25,133 nt of DNA from a virus. Positions 3,056 through 12,830 of the stretch are shown piece by piece; position 1 is the first letter of the stretch, and every line of letters starts with the position of its first letter. A program made the translations under genes and the position numbers. The notes beneath the pieces were generated by a model that worked only from the letters and a program-made list of their open reading frames with translations, ran no database searches and had not been told where the DNA came from. Location of the stretch: the IMG/VR virus record IMGVR_UViG_3300035145_000752, positions 1 through 25,133 of that record, one strand, 5' to 3'.

Positions 3056-3279
3056 TTTACAAAGACCTCACTGTTTTGTTCGAGAGTAAGTTGTTGTGCT
3101 TGCTTCAGATAGTAGCACATGTGCGCTACATACTCAACATCTTCTTCGCAAGGATCAAAATCATAGGCGGCATCCCAATCAACAGTGCCGTCAGTATTAA
3201 CTGGCGCACCATAGAGGTCATCACCATCGATTGCGTAAGCATTGCCATCAGCAACAAGATAGAACTGAGGAGCAGACAT
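3052..3279 (-). CDS. Acidic hypothetical protein (75 aa), first gene after a strong promoter
   Basis: ATG at 3279, 23 nt downstream of the -10 box of a near-consensus sigma70 promoter, so it is probably first in a message that continues through 2435 and perhaps to the metallopeptidase. The protein is acidic, with short strands (QFYLVADGNAYAI, DDLYGAPV) and a Cys-containing acidic segment DFDPCEEDVEYVAHMCYYL. The small beta-rich start with repeated YAI/LYG could be a dimeric barrel, but this is speculation. The leader has CCTCC and no Shine-Dalgarno sequence before the ATG. Confidence 0.75.
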   Translation of the reverse strand: MSAPQFYLVADGNAYAIDGDDLYGAPVNTDGTVDWDAAYDFDPCEEDVEYVAHMCYYLKQAQQLTLEQNSEVFVK

Positions 3280-3301
3280 TGGAGGAAAAGCGTGGATTTA
3301 C

Positions 3302-3330
3302 AGTATAGTATGTATTTGACAGCGTGTCAA
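3302..3330 (-). promoter_or_regulatory. Near-consensus sigma70 promoter
   Basis: On the minus strand TTGACA (3330-3325) is followed by a 17-nt spacer and TATACT (3307-3302). The -35 contains the TGA stop codon of the upstream 152-residue gene, and the -35 is one arm of the palindrome TTGACA-CGC-TGTCAA. The next start codon is 23 nt beyond the -10. This looks like a host-polymerase early promoter. Confidence 0.75.
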
Positions 3331-3785
3331 CGCTTGTAGAGATATCCGCCAGCCCAGTCACAGTTCTCCAGAACAAACTCACGCTGTTCGATGATGCGGA
3401 GGTCGAAGCGAACACCATTCTTAGCAGGCGCTTTGAATGATGCTGCCATATACATCTCACCAGTCTTCTTGTCAACGAAAGCGTGGACGGAGCGAGAGTC
3501 GTTGTCAGTCACCATGATGATCTTGTGATACTTGCGACCAGTCTCGATCACATAAGTGTAGTGATCGCCATTCTTGATCTCATCAATACGCTGCTGAGTC
3601 ACTTGAGTCATGATCTCAGGATTGCCAGTCTCATTGGCAGCGAAGAACTTCTGGCGACGAACGGCAGTTTCAATGTAGTCTTGCTCCAGTGCCTCACAGA
3701 TCATCTGAGTCCAGAGCAGGACATTCTCTTCGATGCGCTTGCGAGCATCAGCAGTGGCACAGTAGTCAGCGAAGGTGGCAGTCAT
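3327..3785 (-). CDS. Conserved cyanophage-type hypothetical protein (152 aa)
   Basis: I choose ATG at 3785; the frame is open to 3839, but that extension overlaps the previous gene and includes a promoter-like CCCTATACTA. The protein has a helical N-terminal half (DARKRIEENVLLWTQMICEAL) and a C-terminal half with HAFVDKKTGEMYMAASFKAP and the ending DWAGGYLYKR. The VHAFVDKKTGE...SFKAPAKNGVR...DWAGGYLY pattern is one I recall in many T4-like cyanophages as a protein of unknown function. Its stop codon sits inside the next promoter. Role unknown. Confidence 0.8.
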   Translation of the reverse strand: MTATFADYCATADARKRIEENVLLWTQMICEALEQDYIETAVRRQKFFAANETGNPEIMTQVTQQRIDEIKNGDHYTYVIETGRKYHKIIMVTDNDSRSVHAFVDKKTGEMYMAASFKAPAKNGVRFDLRIIEQREFVLENCDWAGGYLYKR

Positions 3786-5282: not shown

Positions 5283-5576
5283 CTAACAGAACGACAGGAC
5301 CGAGCGTCGCATCGGTTTGACGATCTGCATTGCAGTATAGGGTGTTGTCTTGTCAATGTCTACCTGATCTCCACACTTGGTGGCATTAACAGGCGCTGAA
5401 TAGGTTCGCGACTTTGTATTGTAGAACCCCCAGATCGTAGAGACAGGATCACTAGTATAATTGTAATGGTCGGGATGGTGTAACCAAATAGCCACAACAT
5501 TACGCTTAAAGGACTTGACTTGATAAGAGTATCCTTTGGGTGCTTTGTGAGGAAATTCATTTGGAAGTTCAAGCAT
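5283..5576 (-). CDS. Hypothetical protein downstream of the methyltransferase (97 aa)
   Basis: I choose ATG at 5576, which overlaps the methyltransferase stop by eight bases (ATGCTTGA); the frame is open to 5645, but that part lies inside the methyltransferase. The protein has aromatic strands: FKRNVVAIWLHHPDHYNY, STIWGFYNTKSRTYSAPVN, and TTPYTAMQIVKP. The pattern WGFYNTK...Y.APVN...G..VD....TPYTAM resembles a short conserved protein I recall from cyanophages, probably a small beta fold. It may be unrelated in function to the restriction-like pair, though translated with it. Confidence 0.75.
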   Translation of the reverse strand: MLELPNEFPHKAPKGYSYQVKSFKRNVVAIWLHHPDHYNYTSDPVSTIWGFYNTKSRTYSAPVNATKCGDQVDIDKTTPYTAMQIVKPMRRSVLSFC

Positions 5577-6630
5577 GGAGTTTAGACCAGATGTGACGTT
5601 GGATGATGTCAAAGCGCAGATTGTATGCTCCGTTGGTAGACACAAATGCTACATCGGACCAATCAGTCTCACGCATGACGCTGTGAATCTCAGTGTCACG
5701 AGACTGTACCACTATACCATATCCGCGTCGCTGCGGAAGACTCTCAAAATTATCGTATACTGTCATCGCACCAGACCCAAAGCATGTGGATGGCAAGTAG
5801 AAATCGCAAGAATTTAGATGTTGTTTGTTACGGGTGGTGCCTGGTGTACCACCATCAGACAGTGAATATAGTTTCACAATGTTAGTCAGATCTACAACAT
5901 CTTCGTCTATCTTGTGATGCTTAGACCACACTTGAAATACCACGTTGACACTAGTTGATGCACCACCAGGATAACGGAACGTAGGATCTACAACCTCACT
6001 ATGCACGAGATTCATACCTTTCACGCGACCCTTACAACTACCTTTGCCGCTACTATTAAATGTCTGTGGAAGTATGAAGCACACATAGTCAGAGAACTGT
6101 GCCGCATGATTGATAAACCTAAGCGCAAGATTTCCGCGCAAACCAAATGGAGGATTGCCTACACATATATTCTTGGTTGTATCTGGAGTCCACTGAAGAA
6201 AATCCTGACGTAGAACCTCACTATCCCGTGGTTCAATATCTAAACCAACATATCCTTTCATTCCAAATGCAGCACACAGAGGAGAGAGCAAGTCAAAGAA
6301 TGCACCATCACCCGCAGATGGTTCAATAAATGTATACTCACTCCAACCACCTTCACCATCAAGTTCAGTTATTACATCAATTGCTTGATTCATGCAATAC
6401 TGTGCTGTCTCCCAATCAGTAAAGAACTGATCTTTCTCCTTCACTGAGAACTGAGAATAATCAACTGCAATATCATCGATGCGACAGAGATCAAAATACC
6501 ATTGTGGTGGCACTTCTTTCTTCTCTAACCACCGATTGACTGTACCTTTGTGAAGATACAATGCATCACAAATAGCATCCATGCCATGCTTATTGTAGAT
6601 AGGGAGGAAGAAATCGTAGATATTATTCAT
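5569..6630 (-). CDS. N6-adenine DNA methyltransferase with N-terminal HTH (353 aa)
   Basis: A gamma-type amino-methyltransferase order is visible: a possible motif X helix (ETAQYCMNQAIDVI, 74-87), motif I FIEPSAGDGAFF (101-112) for AdoMet binding, motif II acidic GLDIEP (129-134), motif III RQDF (141-144), and catalytic motif IV NPPFG (159-163), typical of N6-adenine enzymes. Residues 17-45 (MDAICDALYLHKGTVNRWLE) look like a helix-turn-helix, which could bind the operator or help target recognition. The C-terminal 150 residues are probably the recognition domain. The ATG directly follows the stop of the nuclease-like gene with no gap, suggesting one operon. It may protect phage DNA; an orphan regulatory methylase is the alternative. 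Confidence 0.8.
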   Translation of the reverse strand: MNNIYDFFLPIYNKHGMDAICDALYLHKGTVNRWLEKKEVPPQWYFDLCRIDDIAVDYSQFSVKEKDQFFTDWETAQYCMNQAIDVITELDGEGGWSEYTFIEPSAGDGAFFDLLSPLCAAFGMKGYVGLDIEPRDSEVLRQDFLQWTPDTTKNICVGNPPFGLRGNLALRFINHAAQFSDYVCFILPQTFNSSGKGSCKGRVKGMNLVHSEVVDPTFRYPGGASTSVNVVFQVWSKHHKIDEDVVDLTNIVKLYSLSDGGTPGTTRNKQHLNSCDFYLPSTCFGSGAMTVYDNFESLPQRRGYGIVVQSRDTEIHSVMRETDWSDVAFVSTNGAYNLRFDIIQRHIWSKLHA

Positions 6631-7242
6631 TCAGTTGCCGAGTTTGTTGATGAGGAAGAGACCAAGCAGTTCGTCTTGTGGGTTGTTGAAATCATACTGA
6701 AACGTGATACCAGCGTCAATGCCTCTCTGGATAGACTTCATGCTAAAGTCAACCTTCGCTTTGCCTTCTTCATTCTTACGCTGGTGACCTTTCTTACCAA
6801 AGAGAGAAAGATCAATCATGTTATCTTTCACAACCTGATCGTAGTTGACAACAGTGATATAGATCACATCATTGGCATCATAATCAAGAAAGACAAGTTT
6901 ATCCCACTTATCATCAGAGAAATAAACATTCTCATGCTGCCAACCAATCGCTTTACCCTTGGCAACGGTACGACCAGATGTCTTAACCTCAATACGACGT
7001 TTCTTACCATTATGAAGAAACCAGAACAAATCATATACACCATCATCATTAGATGTATTAGAGTCTTCGTCCCATTGAACTGGAATGTCTGTGTAATCTT
7101 TAATAATGTCACGAAGCAACTCCTCTCCCCACTTTCCTTTGTAATCAGTGGAGAAGTTGACAACATCTTCAAAGACAGAACCAGACCAGTAAGATGCCTG
7201 CTGCTTGTAACTCTCACTCAGTTTGGTGACGATGGAGCGCAT
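6631..7242 (-). CDS. Putative PD-(D/E)XK nuclease, restriction-enzyme-like (203 aa)
   Basis: The core is KWGEELLRDII (37-47), D71 in VYDLFW, then K-R-R-I-E85-V-K87-T-S, a classic D-x(13)-E-x-K arrangement of PD-(D/E)XK nucleases, with E40 as a possible extra acidic residue and later strands KLVFLDY and VIYITVV. Type II restriction enzymes often have this fold and size. I place the start at ATG 7242 because a promoter lies at 7267-7295; the open frame reaches a GTG at 7323, but that would include the promoter and terminator. It is directly followed by the adenine methyltransferase. Target site unknown; a nuclease degrading host DNA is an alternative. Confidence 0.65.
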   Translation of the reverse strand: MRSIVTKLSESYKQQASYWSGSVFEDVVNFSTDYKGKWGEELLRDIIKDYTDIPVQWDEDSNTSNDDGVYDLFWFLHNGKKRRIEVKTSGRTVAKGKAIGWQHENVYFSDDKWDKLVFLDYDANDVIYITVVNYDQVVKDNMIDLSLFGKKGHQRKNEEGKAKVDFSMKSIQRGIDAGITFQYDFNNPQDELLGLFLINKLGN

Positions 7243-7266: not shown

Positions 7267-7295
7267 AGTATGGCATGAAAAAGGGAGGGCGTCAA
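7267..7295 (-). promoter_or_regulatory. Extended -10 sigma70 promoter for the nuclease-methyltransferase operon
   Basis: On the minus strand TTGACG (7295-7290), 17-nt spacer, TGC (7275-7273), CATACT (7272-7267). The TG before the -10 makes it an extended -10 promoter. The nuclease ATG at 7242 is 25 nt beyond the -10. The -35 hexamer is exactly the loop of the terminator hairpin described separately. Confidence 0.7.
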
Positions 7296-7302
7296 CCCTC
7301 CC
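7278..7302 (-). terminator. Rho-independent terminator containing a promoter -35
   Basis: The minus strand reads GGGAGGG (7302-7296), loop TTGACG (7295-7290), CCCTCCC (7289-7283), then TTTTT (7282-7278): a perfect 7-bp GC-rich stem, 6-nt loop and T-run. It lies ten bases after the stop of the 52-residue gene and would end the transcript of the upstream block. Confidence 0.85.
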
Positions 7303-7312
7303 AACCAGTTTC

Positions 7313-7471
7313 TCAACTGTCACTAAAGATAGGAATGATATTAGTCTTAGCGTGTTGCGTTTTATTGATATGCTGCTCCCACAGTGCGGCGTCTTCCAAA
7401 TTGTAGAAGATCGCTTCTTGGCGGGCAGTGCCCTTCTTCTTGTTCTTCATCCACACAACTGCGTACTTCAT
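7313..7471 (-). CDS. Small basic hypothetical protein (52 aa)
   Basis: ATG at 7471 gives 52 residues: KYAVVWMKNKKKGTARQEAI, then FYNLEDAALWEQHINKTQH and an ending NIIPIFSDS. The pattern of a strand, a basic turn, and a helix with EDAALWEQ is like short phage proteins I recall with a Y-x-V-V-x-x-x-x-K start. It ends ten bases before the terminator, so it is last in its transcript. Its first 110 nt overlap the C-terminus of the preceding gene in another frame. Function unknown. Confidence 0.7.
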   Translation of the reverse strand: MKYAVVWMKNKKKGTARQEAIFYNLEDAALWEQHINKTQHAKTNIIPIFSDS

Positions 7472-7652: not shown

Positions 7653-7836
7653 CGAATGCTTTCCGATCCTTGTTCTCAGGTTTAGGGAGACGGAACATCT
7701 CCTTGAGATCATTCAATTCAGACAACTGTCTTTGTAAATCGTCAATTTGATGCTGTAGGATCTGAAAGTTAGCATCATTGTTGTTTTGCATCATCAAGAT
7801 ATTCTTGATAGCATCTCTAAATTCTTCTTCTTTCAT
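7639..7836 (-). CDS. Coiled-coil protein (65 aa)
   Basis: Sixty-five residues, mostly one helix: residues 22-45 have hydrophobic heptad spacing (ANFQILQHQIDDLQRQLSEL), so a coiled-coil dimer is likely. The ends are polar and charged. ATG at 7836 follows the previous stop by five bases. Such short coiled coils in phages may be adaptor or assembly proteins, but nothing indicates which. Confidence 0.7.
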   Translation of the reverse strand: MKEEEFRDAIKNILMMQNNNDANFQILQHQIDDLQRQLSELNDLKEMFRLPKPENKDRKAFDEAD

Positions 7837-7841
7837 GGTAA

Positions 7842-8141
7842 TTAGTAACGCTGAGGTAATTTATCATACTGCCACTTCTTGGCAAGATCTTCAAGGTCAA
7901 CCTCACGATGTCCCATCATAAGATCACGAAGACTGCGAGCGCGACAGTATGCTTTCTCGTGGTATTTAATCACATCATCGATGCAAGATAGCATCTCTTC
8001 ATATGCTTGTCTGCTCGATACTTTATCATCTTGGAGGTAATCATCGATAGCATCTTGCATACGATCTTTACGTTGTCCTGCATAAGTCTTTCGCAAAAAG
8101 TCTTCGGTTCCTTTAAGTTCAGGGCGTCCTTCAATTGTCAT
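7842..8141 (-). CDS. Helical conserved phage protein (99 aa)
   Basis: ATG at 8141 overlaps the previous stop as ATGA. The protein is helical: RKDRMQDAIDDYLQDDK, ARQAYEEML-like SRQAYEEMLSCIDDVIKYHE, and ARSLRDLMMGHREVDLED. The pattern of D-Y-L-x-D-D...AYEEML..IDD...YH....A..LRDLM-GHRE is one I recall in T4-like cyanophage small proteins of unknown role. Probably cytosolic and early. Function unknown. Confidence 0.75.
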   Translation of the reverse strand: MTIEGRPELKGTEDFLRKTYAGQRKDRMQDAIDDYLQDDKVSSRQAYEEMLSCIDDVIKYHEKAYCRARSLRDLMMGHREVDLEDLAKKWQYDKLPQRY

Positions 8142-8332
8142 GAATAAAACTCTTCATTACGGCGGCGGTCAAGATAAGCAATGATTTCACCACGCCACTC
8201 TAGCAGTTCATGATAACAGCACTGCTCGTGAGCATCTTGGCGCAGTTCATGGTCTGGTTTCAGTACACTCTCGTAAAAGATGTAGAATGCATCCTTACGT
8301 TTTTCATGTTTGGTGTTGTCGTTCCAGTCCAT
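8138..8332 (-). CDS. Small charged protein (64 aa)
   Basis: Sixty-four residues from ATG at 8332, very rich in charged residues and His/Cys (DAHEQCCYHELLEWRGEI). An N-terminal KHEKRKDAFYIFYESVLK helix is followed by a helix ending in LDRRRNEEFYS. The EQCCYHE cluster might bind metal. It overlaps the next gene by four bases (ATGA), so the two are probably translated together. Function unknown. Confidence 0.7.
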   Translation of the reverse strand: MDWNDNTKHEKRKDAFYIFYESVLKPDHELRQDAHEQCCYHELLEWRGEIIAYLDRRRNEEFYS

Positions 8333-8384
8333 GTTAGTTTAGCGGAGTCCTATGTATTTTAGATGGTTTTGTGAGGAAATCTGT

Positions 8385-8390
8385 ATAATA
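8385..8390 (-). promoter_or_regulatory. Possible extended -10 promoter before 8332 gene
   Basis: TGATATTAT on the minus strand (8393-8385) fits an extended -10, but the -35 at 17 nt is only CGAACA. An imperfect hairpin surrounds it (TCTG/CAGA flanking ATATTATA, about 8373-8400) with no T-run after it. The start at 8332 is 53 nt away. Confidence 0.3.
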
Positions 8391-8400
8391 TCAGACTTTC

Positions 8401-8547
8401 TTAATATTGTTCGCCATCTCGTGCTTTAGCAGGACTGTGAACGAGATCGACAAATGCCATAGCAGTCTCAGAAAATTCGTTTGGTATCACAACAGCAAAT
8501 ATACCTGCTGCAGCAACACAAAAACAAGTCATCCAGAAATGCCTCAT
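8401..8547 (-). CDS. Small membrane or exported protein (48 aa)
   Basis: ATG at 8547 to TAA at 8401 gives 48 residues. The N-terminus MRHFWMTCFCVAAAGIFAVV is hydrophobic after one basic residue, like a membrane anchor or an uncleaved signal. The tail (ETAMAFVDLVHSPAKARDGE) is polar. It lies between the 90-residue gene and the 64-residue gene with short gaps. No family recognised; the hydrophobic start and the otherwise empty interval support it. Confidence 0.55.
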   Translation of the reverse strand: MRHFWMTCFCVAAAGIFAVVIPNEFSETAMAFVDLVHSPAKARDGEQY

Positions 8548-8574
8548 AATAACTGGGGAATCAATACTCTGTCA

Positions 8575-8847
8575 TTATAGACCAGATGGACCCCATCCGT
8601 CGTTCTCAGGGACAGTATCATCATCGTCTACTTGATCGACTGATGCAATGTCACAAACTGGCACCTCATGCTCGCCACCAATCAAATACCATGGCATAAT
8701 CTCGCCATGGTACTCTGGATGTGCCTGATAATTCTCAGGATAGACACGATCACCCACGTACTTTAGTTCGCTTTCGGGAATATCGTTGTCGCGTAACATT
8801 GCTTGTAGCTGCAAGTGCGTCAGTTCATATTGTGTAGGGACCTTCAT
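8575..8847 (-). CDS. Acidic hypothetical protein (90 aa), first of the small-gene block
   Basis: Ninety residues with ATG at 8847, 28 nt after the -10 of the promoter at 8875-8903. The sequence is a helix (TQYELTHLQLQAMLRDNDIPE), a proline- and tyrosine-rich middle (VYPENYQAHPEYHGEIMPWY), and a very acidic end (DQVDDDDTVPENDGW). Being directly after a strong promoter, it is probably made early. The acidic tail suggests binding to a basic or nucleic-acid-binding partner, but that is only inference. Family not recognised. Confidence 0.75.
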   Translation of the reverse strand: MKVPTQYELTHLQLQAMLRDNDIPESELKYVGDRVYPENYQAHPEYHGEIMPWYLIGGEHEVPVCDIASVDQVDDDDTVPENDGWGPSGL

Positions 8848-8874
8848 GCTGTGCTGTTTCGCAAACGCTTTGCT

Positions 8875-8903
8875 ATCCTACCACACTGTCAAGGGGGTGT
8901 CAA
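8875..8903 (-). promoter_or_regulatory. Extended -10 sigma70 promoter at the late/early boundary
   Basis: TTGACA (8903-8898), 17-nt spacer, TGG then TAGGAT (8880-8875). A second TTGACA (8892-8887) repeats the -35 eleven bases downstream with a C-run between. It starts five bases after the stop of the 261-residue gene and drives the 90-residue gene. Confidence 0.65.
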
Positions 8904-8906
8904 TGC

Positions 8907-9692
8907 CTAGACATCCTCAAATTCAAACACGTCTCGTATCTGTACTTGTTTCTTTACCAGTTCTCCAGACTCCCATGTAAACCTAACCGAAGTCTTTTGT
9001 AATCTAGGTGCATTGTCAGTGATTATGTTACACTCATCTTGTGTCAGTAGTCCAGCACTTACAAGATGACCGTAGTATTCTGCCTTCAATGCTTCATAAT
9101 GACTGTTACCACGATTATAGAAAACATCAGCATCTCTAAACATCAATGGAGTTCTGTCAATAAACTCAATTACTACTCTATCATCCTTGACATTGAACCA
9201 ATATACTATATTGAGACGACCTGAATATGCATCGAGTAATTTCTGTCTCGCAGCATTATACAGGTCACAAGTATCAAGTTCTTGCATAGATCTACCTGCA
9301 GTTCTCATAGTTGCAGTTACCCATTCAATGTCAGAATTCTGATCTGCATAGAATCCAGTGATAGCAATCTCAATACCACTTTCTCTTAGTTCTTTTAGTT
9401 TATCTGGTTCTCTGTAAACAAAAGGAAACCATTCAATAGTGCTATATTCAGTTGCGTGAATACGAATGAAATTGCCAAGAATATCATCACCATCTCTATA
9501 TGTGATTGATCCATCAATTCTATCAGCACCATCTACACCTTCCTCAGATAGAGCACTTTCCATTGCGGCACAAAGATCCACAATGTCTCCATCTGCAGGA
9601 TTAAAATACTTGTATGGAATTGATTTACCGTATGCAGTTTGTGTTCCAGACGGGAGATCAATTACTTTGTATCCAGAGAAGTAGTCTCTCAT
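8907..9692 (-). CDS. Hypothetical protein, last gene of the fibre-adjacent block (261 aa)
   Basis: ATG at 9692 overlaps the previous stop as ATGA. The protein is alpha/beta without signal or membrane helix: DIVDLCAAMESALSEEGV, then GSITYRDGDDILGNFIRIH and STIEWFPFVYREPDKLKEL, AITGFYADQNSDIEWV, and a later VIEFIDRTPLMFRDADVFY with KAEYYGHLVSAGLL. The repeated aromatic strands suggest a compact enzyme or structural protein. I recognise no family. Its place after three oxygenases suggests late expression, ending at the boundary promoter. Confidence 0.75.
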   Translation of the reverse strand: MRDYFSGYKVIDLPSGTQTAYGKSIPYKYFNPADGDIVDLCAAMESALSEEGVDGADRIDGSITYRDGDDILGNFIRIHATEYSTIEWFPFVYREPDKLKELRESGIEIAITGFYADQNSDIEWVTATMRTAGRSMQELDTCDLYNAARQKLLDAYSGRLNIVYWFNVKDDRVVIEFIDRTPLMFRDADVFYNRGNSHYEALKAEYYGHLVSAGLLTQDECNIITDNAPRLQKTSVRFTWESGELVKKQVQIRDVFEFEDV

Positions 9693-10042
9693 AGTGTTAG
9701 ACCATTTGTGTATGCAAGAAAACCAGTATTATCGTAAACTTTGACATTTACTTTCAATTCTGGATAGGAAAGAGATACACCTGACTTCGGAAAGTTTTCT
9801 CTTGCAAATTCAATTGATCTTTCCTTGTCGTCAGACACGAGCACAAAAAACTTCTGTGCTTCAAATGTTGGAAGCACATTGCCTGGCAACACCTCTCCAT
9901 AAAATGCTAGAGCATTGTCAATAGCATCTTGATCTGATGAGGCATTGATGCCAATTCTATCAACAATAATTACGCACTTATCGAGAGAACGTGCATAGTT
10001 TTCAAGAACATCAGCAAGTACGTGGGTATCAGCGAATATCAT
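9689..10042 (-). CDS. Hypothetical protein (117 aa)
   Basis: ATG at 10042 overlaps the oxygenase stop by four bases, and its end overlaps the next start likewise. Residues 1-60 alternate helix and strand (LADVLENYARSLDKCVIIVDRIGIN, QDAIDNALAFYGEVLPG), followed by KFFVLVSDDKERSIEFARENF and VNVKVYDNTGFLAY. The regular pattern suggests a small alpha/beta fold. I do not recognise it. Coupling on both sides suggests it works with the oxygenase or the 261-residue protein. Confidence 0.75.
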   Translation of the reverse strand: MIFADTHVLADVLENYARSLDKCVIIVDRIGINASSDQDAIDNALAFYGEVLPGNVLPTFEAQKFFVLVSDDKERSIEFARENFPKSGVSLSYPELKVNVKVYDNTGFLAYTNGLTL

Positions 10043-10554
10043 TTTAATTGCGTTTTCCAGACTAGAGTTTTTCTCATGCCACCAAATGTTCTGGTAGTCT
10101 CTTCAGAGAAATGTTTTACCATTCCTGGGAAGTATATAGATTTATTTATTTCAGGTACGATGAACTGTGGACCTTCATCAAATAAGAATACAGTTTTACC
10201 ATTCCATCTAATGTCCCATCCTTCATTTGCATACCACAAGAAAGTTCTACCACGTTCATCATATGCATCAACGTGTGGTTGACCGCCAGTGCCATACACT
10301 GATCCATTGCAATAGCAATCATCGAGAGTTAATTCTTCACCAACTATCTCTTGAACTTTTTGAAACAAATGTTCGGTAAAAAACTCTTCATCTTTCAACA
10401 CCATTCCCCAAAATGGAGGTGCATTTTGATATCCATTTTTTGATGAGATGTTACCATAGGACCATCTACCACGATCAAGATATGTACGTATCGTATCTCT
10501 TTCTGCTTTTGAGAAGGTTCTATGATATGTTTTTATATCCTCTGCTTTAAACAT
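10039..10554 (-). CDS. Putative 2OG-Fe(II) oxygenase (171 aa)
   Basis: The iron triad is visible: H94-V-D96 in GQPHVDAYDE and H148 in MVKHFSEETTR, with R161 (GGMRKTLVW) as the likely 2-oxoglutarate contact; R155 is an alternative. Between them are strands RTFLWYAN, WNGKTVFLFDE and KSIYFPG, the usual double-stranded beta-helix order. The length is near the minimum for the fold. ATG at 10554 overlaps the stop of the PKHD-type gene by one base. Likely substrates are a protein side chain or small metabolite; the fibre-adjacent position makes phage proteins worth considering. Confidence 0.8.
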   Translation of the reverse strand: MFKAEDIKTYHRTFSKAERDTIRTYLDRGRWSYGNISSKNGYQNAPPFWGMVLKDEEFFTEHLFQKVQEIVGEELTLDDCYCNGSVYGTGGQPHVDAYDERGRTFLWYANEGWDIRWNGKTVFLFDEGPQFIVPEINKSIYFPGMVKHFSEETTRTFGGMRKTLVWKTQLK

Positions 10555-11198
10555 TACGAAAACTCCCTGATTAAATTATATCTGACTTTCTCCAAGTCTG
10601 CGATGATAGGTTTTACTGCATCATAATTGCTAAGAACCATCTTACCCATTTCGATGACAGAAGAACGAGCTCTACTATCATTAACAGTGGATTGCATCCA
10701 GAATACCATCACTCTCCTTTCACCAGAAATAATAGGATTTACTTTGTGTAATGTTCCTGTTGGGTAGATCACACACATACCAGGATCTAATTTATATTCT
10801 ATCTCGTTTGTACCAACATGCAATACTAACTCCCCTCCCTCATATTCGTCAGGAGAGTTTAAAAAACAACTAACACTAAAGTCAGTTCTAACACCATTCA
10901 TCTGATAGTAATCATTGTGATACGCATAATGCATGTCCTTCTCATATTTCAAGAACATAGGAGAGTTCCAACACTTTGGTGTGTAGATATATCCAAACTC
11001 TCTACAATTGCGTATAGCATTCTCTGTGAGGTTATTGAGAGCAACCTCATTTTCTTGACTGTCAAACAGTTCTAAATTGTATTTCTTAGACCTGTCACTA
11101 TCTCCAGATGAAGACCCATCTCTAAATTTACAGAAACCATAGTAGTCTGAAATTGTAGAGAGATCTTCATCACTCAACATTCTACAAATATGAAACAT
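10554..11198 (-). CDS. PKHD/YbiX-type Fe(II)-dependent hydroxylase (214 aa)
   Basis: The core matches the PKHD-type hydroxylase (YbiX/PiuC) pattern: H94-N-D96 in YHNDYYQM, RTDFSVSCFLNSPDEYEGGEL (104-124), LDPGMCVIYPTGTLHKV (137-153) with H151 as distal iron ligand, and RRVMVFWMQS (161-170) with the 2-oxoglutarate-binding Arg. The family uses Fe(II), O2 and 2-oxoglutarate; in bacteria it is linked to iron uptake loci, while in cyanophages it is annotated as a prolyl 4-hydroxylase-like protein. Length is normal. It begins 14 bases after the previous stop. Substrate unknown. Confidence 0.85.
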   Translation of the reverse strand: MFHICRMLSDEDLSTISDYYGFCKFRDGSSSGDSDRSKKYNLELFDSQENEVALNNLTENAIRNCREFGYIYTPKCWNSPMFLKYEKDMHYAYHNDYYQMNGVRTDFSVSCFLNSPDEYEGGELVLHVGTNEIEYKLDPGMCVIYPTGTLHKVNPIISGERRVMVFWMQSTVNDSRARSSVIEMGKMVLSNYDAVKPIIADLEKVRYNLIREFS

Positions 11199-12137: not shown

Positions 12138-12830
12138 TTAAGGAACCTTGATGTACCATCCAGTCAAAATATATTTATCTTGAGTAAACACTGTGTTGCC
12201 TTTATGTACGTGAGTCATAGCAGCAGGCCAAATAACTAGTGTACCCTGAGTTGGTTGAATCCTTCTTCTTTGATAGAGAAACTCAGTTTCTGCCTCTCCT
12301 TCTGGCATGTCGTTCAAATAAATCGCCCAGACCAGTTCACGATAACTGTAGTGATATCCACCTGTCTCATAATGCCAAACATGATATCCACCCTCAGGTT
12401 CTGTCTTCTGGAGTTTCATATCACCAGAGACATACTTAGCATTTTTTAACTGACTGTATTTCTCCACATACTGTGTAGTACATGCTGTAAGATATTGATT
12501 TACCTGTGATGCTAATACAGGATTAGAATCATTCAATAGGATAGCAGTATCTTTTCTTCCTAGTTTACCATTTGCAAACTGAGTGTCGCCATTCATTACA
12601 ACACTTTTACCGCTGATCTTGCCAGCAGCTACTGCAGTAGGGTCTACATCATCCGCAGTAGCATTAATGTAACTACTGTTACACATGTATTCTTCGTAAT
12701 GATTAATAACTTGTTCGCACATATATGCAGGAACAAAGTTTTCCCAAACACCAATGAAGTCTTTAAACTCAAACTTAGTGAGTTTAGGATCTTGCATCAA
12801 TTCAAGAGGTTTAATAGGTACAGAAGCCAT
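12138..12830 (-). CDS. Putative 2OG-Fe(II) oxygenase with HxE variant (230 aa)
   Basis: The C-terminal half follows the oxygenase order: H153-Y-E155 (in YHVWHYE) where HxD is expected, RELVWAIYLND (164-174), GTLVIWPAAMTH (196-207) with H207 as distal ligand, and K219 or a neighbour in place of the usual Arg (DKYILTGWYI). Glu in place of Asp is known in a minority of the superfamily, so activity is plausible but not sure. The N-terminal half (residues 20-130) starts with a helix like those of prolyl hydroxylase relatives (FVPAYMCEQVINHYEEYM). It is the first gene after the large fibre, with a possible late promoter 29 nt upstream. Confidence 0.8.
   Translation of the reverse strand: MASVPIKPLELMQDPKLTKFEFKDFIGVWENFVPAYMCEQVINHYEEYMCNSSYINATADDVDPTAVAAGKISGKSVVMNGDTQFANGKLGRKDTAILLNDSNPVLASQVNQYLTACTTQYVEKYSQLKNAKYVSGDMKLQKTEPEGGYHVWHYETGGYHYSYRELVWAIYLNDMPEGEAETEFLYQRRRIQPTQGTLVIWPAAMTHVHKGNTVFTQDKYILTGWYIKVP

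Follow-up and report, generated by a model that had tools for sequence, protein, structure and literature searches.

The gene pair and its surroundings

The window, by which we mean the whole stretch of DNA analysed here, is a viral record of 25,133 bases. It is a fragment of a T4-like (lytic-type) cyanophage, and the host type is marine cyanobacteria: 24.9 kb of it matches, in pieces, 204 records of Synechococcus or Prochlorococcus phages or cyanophages, with Sf-CH1b first. The small gene at the downstream end of the locus (phrog_573) matches 361 records, all of them Synechococcus or Prochlorococcus phages or cyanophages.

The locus holds two genes, here called R and M, whose features are listed in Table 1. 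The ATG of M (6630) comes without a gap after the stop codon of R (6631–6633). For R we use the ATG at 7242, which is the start kept in the homologues; a longer open reading frame beginning with GTG at 7323 is not. Both reading frames had been reported in an earlier note on this DNA, with the motifs D71, E85-V-K87, PSAGDGAF and NPPFG, and all of these are present.

Table 1. Features of the R–M locus, in window coordinates
Feature	Position	Strand	Basis
R, the leading gene, encoding a predicted 203-aa PD-(D/E)XK nuclease	6631–7242	minus	33-member alignment, AlphaFold model, Foldseek
M, 353-aa predicted N6-adenine DNA methyltransferase of gamma type, with a probable HTH at its N terminus	5569–6630	minus	PADLOC, M.TaqI profile match, model
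R codon D71, predicted catalytic Asp ahead of strand 72–75	7030–7032	minus	Invariant; model secondary structure
R codons E85-V86-K87, on strand 81–94	6982–6990	minus	E85 and K87 invariant; model secondary structure
R codons G39-E40, helix Glu of the predicted fold	7123–7128	minus	Invariant; helix 32–50 in model
M predicted SAM-binding motif EPSAGDGAF, residues 103–111	6298–6324	minus	Conserved
M predicted catalytic motif NPPFG, residues 159–163	6142–6156	minus	Invariant
M probable N-terminal helix-turn-helix, about residues 17–37	6520–6582	minus	Model helices; sub-threshold Pfam in homologues; T30, R33 and W34 invariant
Promoter-like site TTGACG-17-CATACT, TG before the -10, -35 within the terminator hairpin	7267–7295	minus	Conserved in L031 and L032; with changes in L022
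Terminator-like hairpin behind phrog_13220, the small gene that precedes R	7283–7302	minus	Conserved with the promoter in relatives
CAGTTGAGAAACTG dyad, belonging to an intergenic module that recurs in cyanophages	7306–7319	minus	Module comparison
Small gene phrog_573, downstream of M and overlapping its stop codon	5283–5572	minus	Absent with R and M at the empty site of Sf-CH1b

Elsewhere in the window, two 2OG-Fe(II) oxygenase genes (10554–11198 and 12138–12830, minus strand) stand on either side of a gene resembling a tail-assembly chaperone, and both resemble parts of one long PHROG (phrog_61).

R is a predicted PD-(D/E)XK nuclease

The R alignment comprises 33 homologues, between 27 and 94% identical to the window protein. 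Its invariant residues include D33, G36, G39, E40, D58, N62, D67, Y70, D71, E85, K87, T88, Q102 and D114, and because this invariance holds down to 27% identity, the aligned sequences argue that the D...ExK motif is not a chance occurrence. An AlphaFold model of R (pLDDT 87.3, pTM 0.84), run as the check set in advance for refuting the PD-(D/E)XK core that the earlier note had proposed, is nuclease-like: E40 lies within a helix, D71 begins one strand, and E85 and K87 are on another (residue ranges in Table 1). When the model was compared with the PDB using Foldseek, the seven best matches were, where named, entries for nucleases of the PD-(D/E)XK type; the first were I-Ssp6803I, NhoI, chains of SPARDA complexes, the restriction endonuclease 3ndh and EcoRV. 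The best E-value was 4.4e-4, with a probability of 1.00 and modest TM-scores (0.3–0.55). From the invariant motif together with the predicted fold, we take R to be a PD-(D/E)XK nuclease.

No curated family covers R at a score above its cut-off. Pfam NOV_C (PF13020) matches R with 15.7 bits, below its curated cut-off of 22.1, and 13 of the 33 family members give NOV_C matches at E up to 0.1 (best 0.00088). The R profile had no match among PDB sequences, a tblastn search of INPHARED with R gave nothing at E 0.1, and cultured phages were reached only from a divergent homologue, L092. Two scans of genome contigs with R alignments returned no bacterial relatives, at a sensitivity limited to the chosen peptide patterns.

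M is a predicted N6-adenine methyltransferase

The comparisons made with M agree with the earlier assignment as an N6-adenine methyltransferase, and we predict an enzyme of the gamma class. The protein matches the PADLOC Type II methyltransferase model at E=2.6e-45, the M alignment profile finds M.TaqI among PDB sequences at E=2e-5, and EPSAGDG and NPPFG are conserved across the homologues, so that a single Rossmann domain contains first a SAM motif and then NPP(F/Y). In the M model (pLDDT 89) the N-terminal region contains helices at 17–24 and 28–37, and T30, R33 and W34, which fall within it, are invariant in the alignment. Pfam HTH matches were found in two homologues, L018 and L080, both sub-threshold. 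The N-terminal HTH that had been claimed is probable: it is borne out by the model helices, but Pfam supports it below threshold and in some homologues.

The M of the window differs from its relatives at ten otherwise invariant positions, carries a 7-aa insertion, lacks the C-terminal tail of the relatives and sits on a long branch in the M tree. A check for decay showed intact catalytic motifs but accelerated change. Judged from the alignment and tree, this M evolves unusually fast, and we are less sure that it is active than we are for the M of its relatives.

The upstream signals are shared with other cyanophage loci

Upstream of R there is a terminator-like hairpin and a promoter-like site of the form TTGACG-17-TG-CATACT. 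As statistical signals both fail, neither being commoner in the region than in shuffles; the real evidence for them is conservation, as judged from aligned relatives. The hairpin with TTGAC inside it, followed by the extended -10, is conserved in L031 and L032 and, with changes, in L022. A near-identical terminator–promoter unit is held by S-H9-1, and related dyad-plus-promoter modules sit before other genes in several cyanophage loci. The earlier note gave the pair an extended -10 promoter of its own and an upstream terminator. Both signals are present, and conserved in close relatives, but the promoter is generic to cyanophages. These comparisons point to an element of general use in cyanophages, with the cassette wired into it, rather than to a private promoter.

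The aligned upstream regions, inspected by eye, contain no cassette-specific operator for the HTH of M, which leaves the proposed autoregulation, by which the HTH would delay the nuclease, unsupported. The CAGTT-N4-AACTG dyad upstream of R was tried as an HTH site and rejected because it is generic to cyanophage promoters.

The recurrent intergenic module to which this dyad belongs (window 7267–7319, minus strand) occurs also in L022, L014, L036, L037, L038 and L103. After the dyad there is sometimes a TTGAC-containing terminator hairpin, then an extended -10, and in many cases the ATG is preceded by an A-rich leader such as GAGTCAAAGGAACA. The terminator and the -35 of the promoter have bases in common in this module.

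R and M are inherited together

We collected 36 distinct M homologues from IMG/VR, of which one (L065) has no usable upstream DNA, leaving 35. The close homologues of R and M are all on metagenomic contigs, some of them nearly identical. In 33 of the 35, the next gene upstream of M is an R homologue, overlapping it or within a few bases and always in the same order. The two that have no upstream R, L099 and L100, are the most distant M proteins. Conversely, L050 carries R and has no M anywhere in its 20.7-kb contig, and L041 (146–1397), on a contig that begins 145 bases upstream of R, has an R homologue with an intact motif and no M downstream. L041 is possibly an M-less version of the cassette; its R directly adjoins g17 and phrog_573, which neighbour the pair in the window. 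More remote relatives of R (T4-GC 685) lie beside two methyltransferases in P-SSM7, and have no adjacent one in S-ShM2 or S-SSM4. The claimed pairing is largely upheld: the genes are seldom apart, with L050 and possibly L041 as the exceptions for R, and L099 and L100 for M.

Between close pairs, dN/dS is about 0.06–0.07 for R and about 0.08–0.17 for M. Since these values are far below 1 for both genes in close relatives, neither looks like debris, and purifying selection on both is indicated. Taken with the gene order, the sequences describe a conserved two-gene cassette that is co-inherited.

It might be supposed that M works by itself to counter host restriction–modification systems, as an anti-restriction methyltransferase, and that R has an unrelated role, for example in DNA processing. 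Solo M-like enzymes are indeed common in phages, and solo relatives of R exist, both in L050 and L041 and as the GC685 proteins of S-ShM2 and S-SSM4. The near-obligate linkage, the fixed order and the overlapping or abutting frames make this improbable.

The nuclease is exchanged beneath a near-constant methyltransferase

Pairwise identities of R and of M are loosely correlated (r = 0.51). The clearest departure is between L018 and L048, whose M proteins are 93% identical and whose R proteins are 38% identical. The DNA of these two loci aligns in the 5' flank (78%), in the promoter up to the start of R (78%), and once more over M and the DNA beyond it, beginning at the R/M junction (87%). Between these segments the R genes give no DNA alignment, so that the exchange runs almost exactly from the start codon of R to the start codon of M. 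L045 and L062 have a similar layout, with M about 84% and R 44% identical. The R-tree clade of L042, L043, L045, L046, L048 and L049 (support 100/99) is scattered over three supported M clades. The opposite case also occurs: the window and L031 share 94% identity in R but 74% in M.

The R and M trees therefore conflict strongly, and the alignments indicate that the R allele is exchanged by recombination while the promoter and M stay. That the R–M order outlasts these exchanges speaks for a pair that functions together. R lineages as different as those of L018 and L048 must, provided that both systems are active, be compatible with one protecting methylation, and the exchange of R beneath a constant M is in this respect an unusual natural experiment.

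The insertion site and other cargo

In Sf-CH1b the gene that precedes R in the window (phrog_13220, 92% identical) is followed 36 bases on by a g18 homologue, with R, M and phrog_573 all absent. This empty site, in a variable block, agrees with the earlier proposal that the cassette was dropped into a block of small genes.

A variable insertion site would also fit with R being a free-standing endonuclease of the homing type by which the cassette is mobilised, with M as a passenger or as protector of the cleavage site. The best Foldseek match of R, I-Ssp6803I, is itself a PD-(D/E)XK homing endonuclease, and cyanophages are known to have homing endonucleases of the intronless kind (PMC3037559). 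R, unlike I-Ssp6803I, has no intron link and is paired with a methyltransferase. Against homing, which has no need of an adjacent methyltransferase, M follows R immediately in 33 of 35 cases across differing genomic contexts, and the R gene is itself swapped out under constant M and flanks. We consider the homing explanation very improbable.

Other cyanophages have different genes of restriction–modification type in this part of the genome. In ACG-2014e (L036) the interval corresponding to the cassette site contains a 2OG oxygenase gene and three others, the last encoding a gamma methyltransferase with NPPY; these three are possibly a different modification or restriction system. They (7728–10513) overlap or abut and encode a 233-aa protein, a 370-aa protein that is ParB-like by eye, and the methyltransferase. 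Sf-CH1b (L035) has, between its g26 and g27 homologues (9556–10895), a gene for a 206-aa protein overlapping one for a beta-class (SPPY) methyltransferase, a possible further restriction–modification pair. S-SM2 (L111) encodes an MjaI-type restriction enzyme (3065–3592; PF09568, 1.2e-46), with no methyltransferase detected by Pfam in three neighbouring genes, and in S-SCSM2R an endonuclease gene overlaps a D12 methyltransferase gene. The order is M-first in Bellamy (L113, 6028–7846), where an Eco57I-type methyltransferase gene is followed 1 base later by one for a 187-aa protein; this protein contains DGR...QFKFK, has no database match and is possibly PD-(D/E)XK-like. Such varied genes across cyanophages suggest that restriction–modification-like functions are a recurrent and varied cargo in this part of the genome.

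The R profile finds no family members in S-SM2, S-SCSM2R or Bellamy, whose restriction–modification-like genes are unrelated to R. P-SSM7 differs: PSSM7_054, beside its two methyltransferases, is a distant relative that matches the R profile at E=4e-5, and its S-SSM4 homologue (77% identical to it) aligns with R in hhalign with a probability of 93.

A proposed role for the cassette

We consider it probable, from the sequences and models together, that R and M form a compact phage-borne restriction–modification cassette of Type II-like organisation. M would methylate adenine within a short sequence in the phage DNA, and R would cleave unmethylated copies of that sequence, whether these lie in the host chromosome, in the DNA of co-infecting phages or in both. 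R could come first because the incoming phage DNA would already have been methylated in the previous cycle; the R-first order would put a plasmid at risk when it enters a naive cell, whereas a phage with premethylated DNA would be safe. T4-like cyanophages would keep the cassette at a variable site for cargo genes, with recombination exchanging the nuclease allele and leaving the promoter and methyltransferase in place.

What such a cassette is mainly used for can be read in two ways. The first, which we put forward tentatively, is degradation of the host genome, giving nucleotide recycling and transcription shut-off in place of the T4 functions denA, ndd and denB. Cyanomyoviruses lack all three of these genes; a 2010 review left their route of host-DNA breakdown open and allowed for an undescribed method of degradation (PMC2984593). 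The pair is thus a concrete, testable candidate for host-DNA breakdown by T4-like cyanophages. R directly follows a promoter of sigma-70-like form and is the first gene after it, and virion-packaged restriction enzymes of chloroviruses are held responsible for early degradation of host DNA (PMC7019647). Against this, most cyanophages do not have the cassette described here, and a complete marseillevirus restriction–modification system leaves the host DNA intact, with exclusion of rival viruses proposed instead (PMC7253447).

The second, which we put forward almost as tentatively as the first and rate only slightly below it, is that the cassette mainly excludes co-infecting phages, the R alleles being swapped since rivals evolve inhibitors of particular nucleases. 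It accounts for the exchange of R beneath a near-constant M and promoter, fits with the different restriction–modification-like genes of other cyanophages, and has the marseillevirus system as a precedent (PMC7253447). However, no inhibitor is known, and the mutual exclusion observed with chloroviruses was shown not to be due to their restriction enzymes (PMC7019647). More speculative still, and in our view unlikely, is the broader proposal that T4-like cyanophages, being without denA and denB, the nucleases with which T4 attacks host DNA, use exchangeable restriction–modification cassettes as a self/non-self nuclease; replacement of R would then be the signature of an arms race directed against the nuclease protein and not against the recognition sequence.

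Comparison with known systems

Virus-borne restriction–modification is already known, and single components have been annotated in cyanophages. In the open-access literature searched we found neither the R family, nor its linkage to M in uncultured cyanophages, nor nuclease exchange under a constant M. The arrangement resembles Type II systems in that a predicted PD-(D/E)XK endonuclease gene adjoins a gamma N6-adenine methyltransferase gene and the methyltransferase has a probable HTH extension; it differs in its location in a T4-like phage, in R always being first, and in the exchange of R alleles under a constant M. Chloroviruses and marseilleviruses likewise encode adjacent restriction enzymes and methyltransferases, with host DNA degradation or rival exclusion as proposed roles. 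Their enzymes are different, however, and their hosts are eukaryotic, and swapping of nuclease alleles was not found for them in the literature searched. S-SM2, S-SCSM2R, Bellamy and P-SSM7 share with the window the presence of restriction-enzyme-like and/or methyltransferase genes in the small-gene block around helicase and 2OG-oxygenase genes, although the enzymes themselves, PSSM7_054 excepted, are unrelated to R and M.

A bacterial restriction–modification pair with the same gene order was seen in Mycoplasmopsis cynos (L105, 2205–3876), where a relative of M (32%) is preceded by a 262-aa protein with PDF...LEVK; these genes are readable only with TGA as Trp.
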